Shown: positions 5,481-48,993 of the stretch, one piece after another
Layout of the letters: each line of letters starts with the position of its first letter
Position numbering within the stretch: position 1 is the first letter of the stretch
Assembly (NCBI GenBank): GCA_035651655.1
Contig: DASRFG010000037.1
Coordinates: 1 to 64,000 of the forward strand
Source of the DNA: Terriglobales bacterium
Lineage (GTDB): Bacteria; Acidobacteriota; Terriglobia; Terriglobales; Acidobacteriaceae
Length of the DNA stretch: 64,000 bases
Reading direction: 5' to 3'
Notes under the pieces: model-generated
What the model was told of the DNA's origin: nothing
The model's database searches: none
Seen by the model: the letters and a program-made list of their open reading frames with translations, nothing else
Position numbers and translations under genes: made by a program

Positions 5481-5602
5481 CCAGGCGGGCGCCTGGATTC
5501 CCGATGAACTGAGTCCAGCCGCGGAGCGGCGGAACAGCGTTTAGCCCAGGGCGTAAGCCCTGGGAAGGTGCGCAAAGAAAATCTGAGCCCCGGAAGGGCG
5601 AC
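5481..5602. repeat. Intergenic palindromic repeat element (REP/MITE-like, four hairpins)
   Basis: The gap between citrate synthase and the cysteine desulfurase contains a run of short perfect hairpins: CCAGGCG-GG-CGCCTGG (5481-5496), GCCGC-GGA-GCGGC (5518-5530), CCCAGGGC-GTAA-GCCCTGGG (5545-5564) and CCC-GGAA-GGG (5589-5598). The order of a CCCAGGGC hairpin followed by a CCCCGGAAGGG hairpin is familiar to me from dispersed intergenic repeats in soil-bacterial genomes. Only one copy is in this window, so dispersal cannot be shown here. The element lies directly before the iscS-like gene and could affect its 5' leader. Confidence 0.5.
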
Positions 5603-44243: not shown

Positions 44244-45461
44244 TTAATACGCGAAGTATGGCCCCGGACCGGCCGGAGTATTTTGTCCCTCAATCGCAGT
44301 GAACACATTCCGCCCATAGAAGAATGGCATTCCCCAATCAAACTGATTTGGATTTGGTCCGCCCAAATTATTGAAAGCGGTAGCGGCCAGGTTTGAGAAC
44401 AGAGTGTCCGCATTGGCGATGTTGAAGCTCACATTGCTGCTGGTTCCATTTGTTCCCTGATTGGTGGCGGAAAAGCTTCTCGTATTAGGAGGGCAGTAGA
44501 AGGAAGAGTTGTCGGTGCACACACTGAGCGCAGTGCTGGCGCTGTCCAGGAAAAACAACCCATTTGAGCCGCTGTCAATAAATGCGCCATAGGAAATGTT
44601 CTTGAAAACAGTGGTGAAGGTCGCATTCGAAGGATCTACGCCCAGCACGGTTGCGTTGGACAGCCCGTTGTTCGATTGCGTTCCAATCCCAAAAACCAAC
44701 GACCCGCTCACGGTCGGTGCTCCCGCTGCCGGGATCGCCGGCAGCTCGATGATGACTCCGTTGTTGTCTGTCGGAAAGAATGCCACCGGATTTTGCACCT
44801 GCGCTGACAATGGCTCCGCCGTCTGTATGCAGCCTGAGGACGGACACGCATAGTAGAGTCCCACATTGTTCGCGGTGGAGGCGCATCCCGGACCACAGTC
44901 CTGAACGAACGGGCCCACCCCCAATACACCGTTGGCGCCCAAGGTAGCTAGGGTATCCTCGGAGGGAATACCAGCGTTCTTGCAAGGCGTTGGCACGGTG
45001 GGAAATGCGGGATCACCAATGACCTGCATTGGGACCGAATTCGCCTTTTCGCCGGCTATGATGATGTCAGCCGCTTTGATAGGTCCCCAGGTAAAGCCAT
45101 CCTGGAATTGATTGCACTCCGCTATGGGAGTGGTTCCGGAAACCTGTTGCGGCAGCGCGAGCGTCAACGCCGAAGCCAGTACTCTTAGTCCGCTTGATCC
45201 CGTATCTACGAGCACTCCGTTGATGGTCTGACATTCGGTGGTACTACCTGGCACACACACCTTAACGCTGGTAAATGCGCCATTGGCGCTATTGCTCGCC
45301 GGGCCAGCATTCACCGAGATCGGCTGAACATTGTTTCCGGGAGGAGCAATGGGATTGTCACCAACCTTTGAGCCGTTACCACAGCCAACGGCGGTCACCA
45401 AGAGAGCTGCGATGAACAGGATTGGAATGGCGCCGCCACTTCCTCTGCTTGCAAGCGTCAT
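44244..45461 (-). CDS. DUF3443 lipoprotein with pepsin-like DTG/DSG motifs
   Basis: The 405-residue protein starts with a lipoprotein-type signal peptide (lipobox AVGC, C27). It then shows two pepsin-style active-site motifs: V85-D86-T-G-S-S and I295-D296-S-G-S-N, each preceded by hydrophobic residues. Between them lies ANGVLGVGP, which resembles the pepsin DGILGLG strand. VSGSLVFGIG also fits the A1 aspartic protease fold. Annotated members are called DUF3443, with no known activity. The stop of the upstream DUF2844 gene overlaps its start by 4 nt, and the DUF2844-DUF3443 pair is also known in Burkholderia relatives. A cell-surface aspartic peptidase is inference. Confidence 0.8.
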   Translation of the reverse strand: MTLASRGSGGAIPILFIAALLVTAVGCGNGSKVGDNPIAPPGNNVQPISVNAGPASNSANGAFTSVKVCVPGSTTECQTINGVLVDTGSSGLRVLASALTLALPQQVSGTTPIAECNQFQDGFTWGPIKAADIIIAGEKANSVPMQVIGDPAFPTVPTPCKNAGIPSEDTLATLGANGVLGVGPFVQDCGPGCASTANNVGLYYACPSSGCIQTAEPLSAQVQNPVAFFPTDNNGVIIELPAIPAAGAPTVSGSLVFGIGTQSNNGLSNATVLGVDPSNATFTTVFKNISYGAFIDSGSNGLFFLDSASTALSVCTDNSSFYCPPNTRSFSATNQGTNGTSSNVSFNIANADTLFSNLAATAFNNLGGPNPNQFDWGMPFFYGRNVFTAIEGQNTPAGPGPYFAY

Positions 45462-45931
45462 CGAACCGCCTCAGTGCGAACTCCCTGCGGCAACAATTCT
45501 GGGACGTACGCCCTGCCAGAGAAGGCCCGCATGTGGCCGCCCTGCTGTACTACGAGCCCGGGCATTTCAATCAGAAGCGGTCCATGGCCGGAACGGCGAA
45601 TTCGCGCGGCGCGAGTGTATTGCTCAAAATAGGCGCCCATAATTTGCTGCATGTCGGGGATGGTCGGCCCCTGCCATGAAACCGCAAAAACTTTTCCCGC
45701 GGGCGAGACATACTCTCTGACCACGTGCCCGGTAGCAGCCCGCACCTCGTGCACTGTGTACGCGCTGGCAGTGGTGACCCGAAGGCTGGCGCGCATCTGC
45801 GCCTGATCGTTTCGCACCGAATTCACATCACCACCCAAGGCCGCGAACCCCGCCATGGGTAAAGCAAGAATTGCGCAGGCAATGGCCAGCAACCACCCAC
45901 CGTGTTTTGGCAAAGCAGTAAGCACGTTCAT
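45458..45931 (-). CDS. DUF2844 domain protein
   Basis: The 157-residue exported protein has a signal peptide ending near AGFAALGG (residues 27-34). The DUF2844 core contains REYVSPAGKVFAVSWQGPTI and MQQIMGAYFEQY. The C-terminal segment (LLIEMPGLVVQQGGHMRAFS) is well conserved in the family. It is coupled to DUF3443 by an ATGA overlap, so it is probably a partner, for example a chaperone or substrate of the peptidase-like protein. No catalytic residues are obvious. Confidence 0.82.
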   Translation of the reverse strand: MNVLTALPKHGGWLLAIACAILALPMAGFAALGGDVNSVRNDQAQMRASLRVTTASAYTVHEVRAATGHVVREYVSPAGKVFAVSWQGPTIPDMQQIMGAYFEQYTRAARIRRSGHGPLLIEMPGLVVQQGGHMRAFSGRAYVPELLPQGVRTEAVR

Positions 45932-47545: not shown

Positions 47546-48241
47546 ATGCCACGGCCAGTACTCAGCAAGAGAACTGTTTCCGGTGAGAGCACGGCGTCCG
47601 CCCCCCAGTCACCACCTTCCTCCGCACCGGCCAGCTTGAAGCTTCAGCGCTGGGCACACTCTGCCCAGGTCTTCGTAGTCAAGCATCCCATACCTTTCAT
47701 GGCGGGTTTGGCGTTGGTTATTTTCCTGGTTGCCTTTCACGTAAACCGTTCTATCGGCGCAGCCAATCTGCAAATCAAGATGCAGCACGGTTTCCGTTCC
47801 GCAGAAGTGTCGGTCTGGGTTGACGACCAACTCACGTACACAGGCAAGACCAGTGCAAAAAAGCGCCGCTTGCGTATGCTTCCGGCGACGGTGCAGGGCA
47901 CTCTGGTGCGTACCATACAAGTTCCTGCGGGCAGCCATGAGTTGCGGGTACGCGTGCACTCCTCCGATGGATACGATTCCACAGGACGAATCACTGGGGA
48001 TTTTGCTCGCAAGGCGGACATGGGTTTGCTGATTGCAGCCGGAAAACCAGGAAATGACCTTGCTTTATCTTGGGTCAATGGCGCTGGTTTAACTGCCGAA
48101 CTTGGCCCGGTATGGTATGTAAAGTACGCTGGCTCACTGCTGATGACCATCGCAGGGTCCATCATCTCCGCCTGTACCGCATTCGTGATCCGCGAATTGC
48201 CCAACATTGCCCGCCGCAGCAGCGAACAAACCAAAGCTTGA
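47546..48241 (+). CDS. Hypothetical membrane protein upstream of the deiodinase-like gene
   Basis: The 231-residue protein has a Ser/Pro-rich cytoplasmic start, a membrane helix (about residues 49-67: PFMAGLALVIFLVAFHVNRS) and a soluble beta-rich domain (about 70-165; AEVSVWVDDQLTYTGKTSAK; VPAGSHELRVRVHSSDGYDS). The domain may be a carbohydrate-binding or PEGA-like fold. A second helix lies near 190-215. I do not recognise the family. It ends 20 bases before the selenoprotein gene on the same strand, so the two are probably co-transcribed and act in the same membrane. Confidence 0.7.
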   Translation: MPRPVLSKRTVSGESTASAPQSPPSSAPASLKLQRWAHSAQVFVVKHPIPFMAGLALVIFLVAFHVNRSIGAANLQIKMQHGFRSAEVSVWVDDQLTYTGKTSAKKRRLRMLPATVQGTLVRTIQVPAGSHELRVRVHSSDGYDSTGRITGDFARKADMGLLIAAGKPGNDLALSWVNGAGLTAELGPVWYVKYAGSLLMTIAGSIISACTAFVIRELPNIARRSSEQTKA

Positions 48242-48261: not shown

Positions 48262-48993
48262 ATGCCCAACATGCGTAAGGTTCTTGTGCGGACAGCCATA
48301 GGCCTGGCGGTCATCTACGTCGTGTTTCTGGGTTTCATCACCTGGGCCATGCGCCAACCACCGGAGACCTTCGGCCGTGTCATGTCGCATATGACGAATG
48401 CCGTGTTTCTGGTGGCGCCTTTTGAAACTCTCTGGACACAGGCGCGCGCCGGGCAGCTCCAACCTGGCCAAGCCGCGCCAGACTTTTCACTGACAACCCT
48501 GGACCATACCTCGCAGATCAGTCTGGCTTCTTTCCGCGGCAAGCAGCCCGTGGTCCTCATATTCGGGAGCTATACCTGACCCCCATTTCGGCGGGAGGTT
48601 CCTGCCCTCAACACGCTGTACGATCAGTATCGCGACAAAGCCGCCTTTTACGCGGTATACATTCTCGAGGCACACCCTAGCGACGTCTGGCAAATGGAGA
48701 GTAACGTCCGCGACAAGGTGGTCTTTCAGAGTCCGCGGAATGTGGATGAGCGTACCCAAGTTGCAGGAACCTGCGTGCGCAAGCTAGGCATCAAGTTCCC
48801 GGCGCTCATTGACGGCTTCGACAATGCTGCTGAAAAGGCTTACACCGGTTGGCCTGACCGCATGTACGTCATAGACACTCAGGGTCGCATTGTCTATAAG
48901 AGCAAACCCGGTCCGTTCGGTTTCAAGACCAAGGAATTGGGCGCTGCCCTGGCGCAGTTGTTTCCAGCCCAGCCCAGCAGGGCCCAGAACTAA
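48262..48993 (+). CDS. Iodothyronine-deiodinase-like selenoprotein (Sec at UGA 48577)
   Basis: The reading frame runs from 48262 to the TAA at 48991-48993, with one in-frame TGA at codon 106. Read as selenocysteine, it gives a 243-residue protein. An N-terminal membrane anchor (about residues 7-30) leads to a thioredoxin-like domain (APDFSLTTL), the active site GSYT-U106-PPF, and YILEAHPSDVW. The vertebrate deiodinase active site is GSCT-U-PPF followed by YIEEAHPSDGW, so both catalytic blocks are matched on the two sides of the TGA. A SECIS-type hairpin lies at 48590-48606. Translation ending at the TGA would leave only the anchor and half a fold. The family also occurs in other bacteria, and its bacterial substrate is unknown. 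The start could also be the ATG three codons in. Confidence 0.88.
48577..48579 (+). promoter_or_regulatory. In-frame UGA recoded as selenocysteine
   Basis: TGA stands where deiodinase-fold proteins have the catalytic Sec (or Cys in homologues), with conserved GSYT before it and PPF after it. Homology continues in the same frame on both sides, so a frameshift is excluded. Confidence 0.87.
48590..48606 (+). promoter_or_regulatory. Bacterial SECIS element
   Basis: GGCGGGAGGTTCCTGCC folds into a 7-base stem (one G-U pair) with a GGU loop; opening the top A-U pair gives the loop AGGUU. The stem begins 10 bases after the UGA. The fdhF SECIS of E. coli has a GC-rich stem about 11 bases after UGA and an AGGUCU loop in which the GGU is read by SelB. 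Position, stem and loop agree closely. Confidence 0.8.

Follow-up and report, generated by a model that had tools for sequence, protein, structure and literature searches.

A deiodinase-like selenoprotein gene in an acidobacterium and its probable redox role

Selenoproteins resembling the deiodinases of animals are not new to bacteria. Sec- and Cys-containing deiodinase-like proteins were described from the Sargasso Sea in 2005, with a bacterial SECIS after the UGA codon, and that report proposed a redox role because thyroid hormone would not be expected in bacteria (PMC1088965). The kind of protein considered here is therefore already known, as an initial annotation of the present locus had noted, and a 2026 review describes such functions as largely uncharacterised (PMC13188914). 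The window analysed here (a whole stretch of 64,000 nucleotides, positions 1 to 64,000 of contig DASRFG010000037.1 in assembly GCA_035651655.1, from a Terriglobales bacterium) contains a gene of this kind, and it raises two questions: is the in-frame UGA read as selenocysteine (Sec), and what does a protein of the deiodinase family do in an acidobacterium?

With TGA translated as Sec, the codon at positions 48577-48579 falls inside the motif GSYT-U-PPF and the block EAHPSD follows downstream in the identical frame, just as the initial annotation had proposed. Between 48580 and 48990 the frame of the gene contains no stop codon, and the other two frames of the same strand contain 2 and 7. A standard ORF listing splits the gene as predicted, into ORFs at 48262-48579 (105 aa) and 48694-48993 (99 aa). 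Translation may start at ATG 48262 or at ATG 48271. The features of the gene, and the Sec genes found elsewhere in the genome, are collected in Table 1.

Table 1. Features of the deiodinase-like gene (positions in the window) and Sec genes of the same genome (contig and position).
Feature	Location	Strand	Remarks
Deiodinase-like selenoprotein gene	48262..48993	+	243 aa, Sec = residue 106; alternative start 48271
In-frame UGA read as selenocysteine (U106)	48577..48579	+	TGA in 100 distinct homologous proteins
Thioredoxin-fold deiodinase-like catalytic domain	48463..48969	+	residues 68-236; profile, structure comparison
N-terminal transmembrane helix	48265..48351	+	model residues 2-30; hydropathy, flank charge, 94 homologues
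Bacterial-type SECIS hairpin	48590..48606	+	stem 48590-48596 with 48600-48606, loop GGU 48597-48599
Cys171	48772..48774	+	domain's only other Cys; candidate resolving Cys (putative role); 84/84 in main clade
tRNA-Sec	C10:6064-6157		66.8 bits vs gathering 47; ARAGORN anticodon tca
SelB	C1:137873-139750		358.5 bits vs cut-off 242.25
SelA	C7:64880-65989		3.5e-139
SelD	C24:84020-84976	-	L035; 6.4e-108; own in-frame TGA in AGUASKL

Searched as a single read-through protein, the product matches the T4_deiodinase family (PF00837) over residues 43-232 (9.6e-32; 110.6 bits against a gathering threshold of 27), and sequence matches to the solved enzymes Dio3 (4tr3, 1.2e-19) and Dio2 (9h48, 1.6e-18) cross the Sec site. 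The profile NF038285 (deiodinase_rel) is matched at 2.3e-60 over positions 179-342 of 347, but the score of 204.9 bits lies below the curated cut-off of 250 and the first 178 positions are unmatched. An AlphaFold model (mean pLDDT 95), for which 56 sequences out of the 75 cluster representatives were aligned, has mouse Dio2 9h48 as its best solved match (Z 21.6, rmsd 2.7, 170 residues aligned) and Dio3 4tr3 as its second (Z 21.3, rmsd 2.6, 171 aligned), with ResA- and AhpE-type chains trailing at Z near 17.8 (AhpE 17.7). Similarity to the peroxiredoxins and thiol peroxidases (AhpE, Bcp, Tpx) is also detectable, as PF00578 scores 49.2 bits against a cut-off of 26, but this is below the deiodinase score, and deiodinases are the best match in both family and fold. 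The active-site motif of peroxiredoxins is PxxxT/SxxC. Ser103 at -3 is kept in the window protein, but the Pro at -7 is missing (residue 99 is Leu in 95/99 and Met in 4/99 sequences). Profile alignments to Tpx and Bcp of Escherichia coli span the N-terminal part alone and end before the region of Cys171.

Among 84,980 species genomes scanned, 379 relatives came up, and the best 80 of these 379, which were retained, are all acidobacterial by name. Across 41 genomes, the window's own counted in, the UGA gene was present in eight. Random codons at the Sec site of relatives, which would speak against Sec, were not what was found: among 133 hits the codon was TGA in 113 and Cys in 17 (TGC 10, TGT 7), with one gap and two other codons, both in very weak matches. 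The 133 hits include repeats, and the distinct proteins with TGA number 100, five of them divergent or incomplete. Cys occupies the Sec site only in divergent paralogues (best 6.4e-22). One such paralogue, a Cys-type deiodinase/AhpC-like protein with GSATCPATAG at the site, lies in the window's own genome (contig C28, locus L002, 1429-2346; 35% identity over 155 residues). The hits and tree rows showed no member with Cys in the acidobacterial Sec clade.

Directly downstream of the UGA lies a SECIS hairpin, whose loop is separated from the UGA by 17 nt and which has a 7-bp stem and a G in its apical loop (GGU). Counted over 71 distinct sequences, 85.1% of stem cells are paired (78.0 in shuffles), double changes occur in six of the seven stem pairs (a number reached by 4/500 shuffles), and 17 cells carry double changes against 4.2 in shuffles (reached by 0/500). 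Sliding the stem by +1 as a control gave 22 double-change cells against 17 and a covariation score of 0.197 against 0.172, with only 54.5% of cells paired; judged by eye, a stem shifted by one is apparently used in some divergent sequences. The local hairpin has a mean of -11.1 kcal/mol against -5.6 in synonymous recodings, with all 71 sequences beating their own control mean, in a segment picked after the hairpin had been seen; 2.0% of other segments in the same genes fold equally well. For the window sequence by itself, the 60 nt after the UGA give a fold z of -1.29, which is not significant. The codons are constrained as well, as among 61 close homologues Arg111 is CGG in 60/60 and Glu112 is GAG in 60/60 of the cases where the residue is kept, and the 7-codon segment starting at codon 110 has the lowest codon entropy of all starts from 60 to 229.

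The genome also has the means to decode the codon. In this assembly (4.07 Mb, 39 contigs, 99.78% complete) family searches located tRNA-Sec, SelA, SelB and SelD (Table 1), so that a lack of selB or selC, which would have counted against the initial annotation, does not apply. The in-frame TGA of SelD itself is a further sign of UGA decoding in this genome. Searches for tRNA-Sec and SelB were loose at E 0.001, with matches in 41/41 relatives and 14/14 controls; above the cut-offs, tRNA-Sec was found in 32/41 relatives and 5/14 controls, and SelB in 31/41 and 2/14. Throughout the phylum SelB is present in 247 of 396 genomes. It was found in 20 of the 21 genomes with an above-cut-off, TGA-holding deiodinase match and in 227 of the 375 others (Fisher p=8e-4, a value that ignores shared descent, with G228 and G235 counted on the presence of TGA wherever it falls). 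No SelB match was found in G242, a UGA carrier in about 950 contigs, and in G023 (75% complete) neither SelB nor tRNA-Sec was above the cut-off. Three genomes of one genus (G228, G235 and G282) each have three to six deiodinase-family matches, several with an in-frame TGA.

Taken with the family profile and the homologues, the hairpin and the Sec machinery make it almost certain that the UGA at 48577 is read as Sec and that the gene encodes a selenoprotein of the deiodinase family, as had been claimed. Decoding would be carried out by SelB and tRNA-Sec, aided by the adjacent hairpin.

Animal deiodinases have an N-terminal anchor, and the initial annotation saw the same arrangement here. The N-terminal helix is indeed there, but the likeness is only a general one, and the charges flanking the helix suggest a periplasmic domain. 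Of the 94 proteins considered, 76 show a hydrophobic helix, with a mean net charge of +3.3 in the N-flank and +0.7 in the C-flank; in these 76, the N-flank was the more positive in 60 and the less positive in four. By the positive-inside rule this would put the catalytic domain in the periplasm, and the protein probably has one N-terminal helix with its N-terminus inside.

Residue conservation was counted over 99 bacterial sequences (the window protein and 98 others, with L090 left out for its N bases). Aligned with Dio3, the residues S167, T169, Sec170, Y197, E200, H202 and W207 correspond to S103, T105, U106, Y133, E136, H138 and W143 of the window protein. T105, Y133 and H138 are kept in all 99, E136 in 98, S103 in 97 and W143 in 94, and the Sec is followed by P107 (99/99), P108 (98/99) and F109 (97/99). 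The window protein thus has in common with the animal enzymes (4tr3 Dio3, 9h48 Dio2) the motifs GSxTU-PPF and EAHPSDxW, the catalytic residues and the fold (Z 21-22). It differs from them in that its SECIS lies inside the gene and its domain is predicted to be extracytoplasmic, and Dio3 residues H219, F258, Y257, R275 and C239 are not kept. The Sargasso Sea proteins, compared here by their published description, have in common with it Sec in a deiodinase-type protein and a SECIS after the UGA (PMC1088965), but later reviews give the motif as UxxC and the window protein has UPPF, as in Dio2 and Dio3.

It is in the hormone pocket that the bacterial proteins depart from the animal ones. Dio3 simulations have the T4 carboxylate held by Arg275 and Tyr257 with His219 supporting the pocket, and the same source reports lower activity for F258P and R275A (PMC7506546). 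In Dio2 the places of H219, F258 and R275 hold H, F and K. Among the bacterial sequences, by contrast, H219 is replaced by Pro in 94/99 (P158 in the window protein), F258 by Pro in 99/99 (P198), R275 by Pro in 83/99 (P216), and Y257 by Trp in 93/99. Since H219, F258 and R275 are all Pro in the window protein, thyroid hormone is an unlikely substrate, and the protein probably does not act as a deiodinase of that hormone the way the animal enzymes do. As the name of an activity, the "deiodinase" of the initial annotation thus does not carry over, because most or all of the bacterial sequences have other residues at the pocket positions known from animals. Pro198 aligns with the Pro preceding a strand in a thioredoxin-family chain, which brings the bacterial form closer in appearance to redox enzymes of the thioredoxin fold in general.

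A partner for the Sec may be provided by a single cysteine. In the main clade Cys171 is present in 84/84 proteins, which have one further Cys in total between residues 62 and 240. Five proteins (L019 and L129-L132) have Cys154 instead, L130 with Cys190 as well, and three (L134, L138 and L140) have Cys104, at the position of Dio3 Cys168. Cys104 and Cys171 occur together in 0/99 proteins, and 94/99 have exactly one extra Cys past residue 61; the exceptions to the pattern of partner positions are L133 (Cys193), L148 (none), L130, L151, L155 and the incomplete L150. Of the Cys paralogues, 9/13 lack a second Cys within the stretch covered. A Cys at the place of Dio3 C168 occurs in 3/99 bacterial proteins. 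In Dio1 the corresponding residue is Cys124, on which re-reduction by glutathione depends (PMC9141512). It is suggestive only, given the few independent groups (about three), that each main subclade has one resolving Cys in a different place.

Our preferred reading, to which we give a probability of roughly 0.6, is that the gene, with its UGA decoded via SelB and the SECIS, encodes a Sec/Cys peroxidase or reductase that is anchored in the membrane and probably faces the periplasm. A Sec/Cys redox enzyme with a substrate other than the hormone is likewise favoured. In such an enzyme the Sec, placed by alignment within the deiodinase catalytic network of Ser103, Thr105, Tyr133, Glu136, His138 and Trp143, would form a selenolate that attacks a peroxide, a disulfide or another reducible substrate. 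Cys171 would then resolve the oxidised selenium as an Se-S bond, and a thiol donor would reduce that bond. Counting against this reading are the missing Pro at -7 of the peroxiredoxin motif, the exceptions to the partner-Cys pattern, the failure to find AhpD or sel genes next to the window's own gene, and the genomes G242 and G023, where no SelB was found above the cut-off.

The strongest alternative, though an unlikely one, is that the protein is a true reductive dehalogenase, which uses deiodinase chemistry to remove iodine or another halogen from halogenated soil aromatics and has a substrate other than thyroid hormone. The intact Ser-Thr-Sec-Tyr-Glu-His-Trp network would suit such an enzyme, as would a clade in which no Cys member was seen. 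In a quick tree of 96 rows, moreover, mouse Dio2 and Dio3 group with the bacterial Sec clade (SH-aLRT 95), which with the animals comprises 81 rows apart from 13 Cys rows, with the divergent UGA rows L148 and L151 outside it. Against it, the places of Dio3 H219, F258 and R275 are mostly Pro, and reading by eye through the neighbours of 88 loci, as far as their 18 largest families, brought no recognisable dehalogenation gene.

Less probable again is a ResA/TlpA-type thiol-disulfide oxidoreductase in the periplasm, whose Sec would reduce or exchange protein disulfides. The anchor and the predicted periplasmic thioredoxin domain are what such a protein would have, ResA-type chains are among the next-best structures, and Pro198 falls at the thioredoxin-family Pro just ahead of a strand. 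There is, however, no CxxC or UxxC, as PPF follows the Sec almost throughout, and the deiodinase structures clearly outscore ResA. Finally, UGA is normally a stop codon, but that it is a real stop here, or that the gene has decayed and its downstream part is untranslated, is hardly credible given similarity past the UGA in 100 distinct homologues, SECIS covariation with codon constraint, and complete Sec machinery in the genome.

The neighbourhoods of related genes offer a further hint. In 88 loci, the window's excluded, SelB lies in the flank of 12 and SelA in the flank of nine; in 11 of the 12, SelB is upstream and shares the strand of the gene, and in L086 it is on the opposite one. Twelve loci have, directly upstream of the deiodinase-like gene (dio) and on the same strand, an AhpD-like ORF with a TGA of its own (NRCPYULDSH), for example at 1457-2035 in L067 and at about 3364-3945 in L074; that of L067, the one scanned, exceeds the TIGR01926 cut-off. 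SelB is also upstream in 9/12 of these loci; in L076 it lies on the opposite strand. The Acidicapsa dinghuensis locus (L074) reads selA-selB-ahpD(Sec)-dio(Sec), and 16 nt separate ahpD from dio if the latter starts at ATG 3962. All 12 loci fall inside one clade of 15 rows (SH-aLRT 97), so the cluster may be a single event with losses. An AhpD with Cys is upstream in L069, from the clade of the 12, and in L117, from another clade. The strand opposite the gene carries Cys AhpDs in L118. In L078, which belongs to a different clade, a single ORF separates the gene from an upstream SelB.

Neither an AhpD nor a sel gene turned up next to the window's own gene, so the link to AhpD is only a hint about function. 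At E 1e-30, a CPYU AhpD was not matched in the window's genome and was found in 3/41 relatives; among these three, G005 alone carries the UGA gene as well, and there the two genes lie on different contigs. In the phylum sample 8/396 genomes match, seven of the eight without a stop. AhpD as a general partner is ruled out by this absence from the window's genome and rarity among relatives. Direct electron transfer between the two proteins is made less likely by the lack of an obvious anchor in the AhpD-like protein (by eye), given that the domain of the deiodinase-like protein is predicted to lie outside. Elsewhere in the window's genome, beside selB on contig C1, an AhpD-like frame with an in-frame TGA (L040, 5882-6691, minus strand; MLNRCQYUMQHHLASSKRAG) is convergent with selB.

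Among the 18 largest neighbour families of the 88 loci no conserved neighbour of the window gene was found. The three largest are pieces or shadow frames of the dio gene itself, and of the other families listed only one has a member in the window, more than 5 kb away from the gene. A 231-residue ORF at 47546-48241 (plus strand) ends 20 nt upstream of the gene; neither Pfam nor NCBIfam gives it a match at E 0.01.

A wider evolutionary picture can be put forward only tentatively, and we consider it possible but rather doubtful: these would be Sec-only, anchored Sec/Cys enzymes, ancestral to the animal deiodinases, in which the partner Cys has moved among positions 171, 154 and 104 (the last as in the 'SCTU' of Dio1 and Dio3), with one clade working with a Sec-AhpD in a selA-selB-ahpD-dio cluster. 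The proteins bear on the origin of the animal deiodinases because in the tree mouse Dio2 and Dio3 join the bacterial Sec clade instead of the Cys paralogues. The exact place of the animals is unsure, owing to a long animal branch, only two animal sequences and an outgroup that does not form one side of a branch.

Among the open-access literature matches listed, there was no description of this Sec clade of acidobacteria or of its link to ahpD, and the rebuilt pocket, the partner Cys that alternates in position and the cluster linked to sel genes were likewise not found there. The set offers material for tests, with about 100 homologues, the candidate pair Sec106 and Cys171, the pocket difference and a cluster with the Sec machinery in one clade. 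Several carriers have strain names suggesting cultured isolates, namely Acidicapsa dinghuensis, Edaphobacter lichenicola and Occallatibacter savannae.

A plasmid search with the protein gave eight weak records, one of them annotated as deiodinase-like. On the Mycolicibacterium plasmid NZ_CP126902.1 (L156), the weakly similar deiodinase-like gene is overlapped by a gene of the CMD family, and a glutaredoxin-domain gene comes next. Elsewhere in the window, adjacent DUF3443 and DUF2844 genes lie at 44244-45931 on the minus strand, and an Acido-Lenti-1 RNA (RF01687) scoring above the gathering threshold lies at 5517-5564, also on the minus strand.
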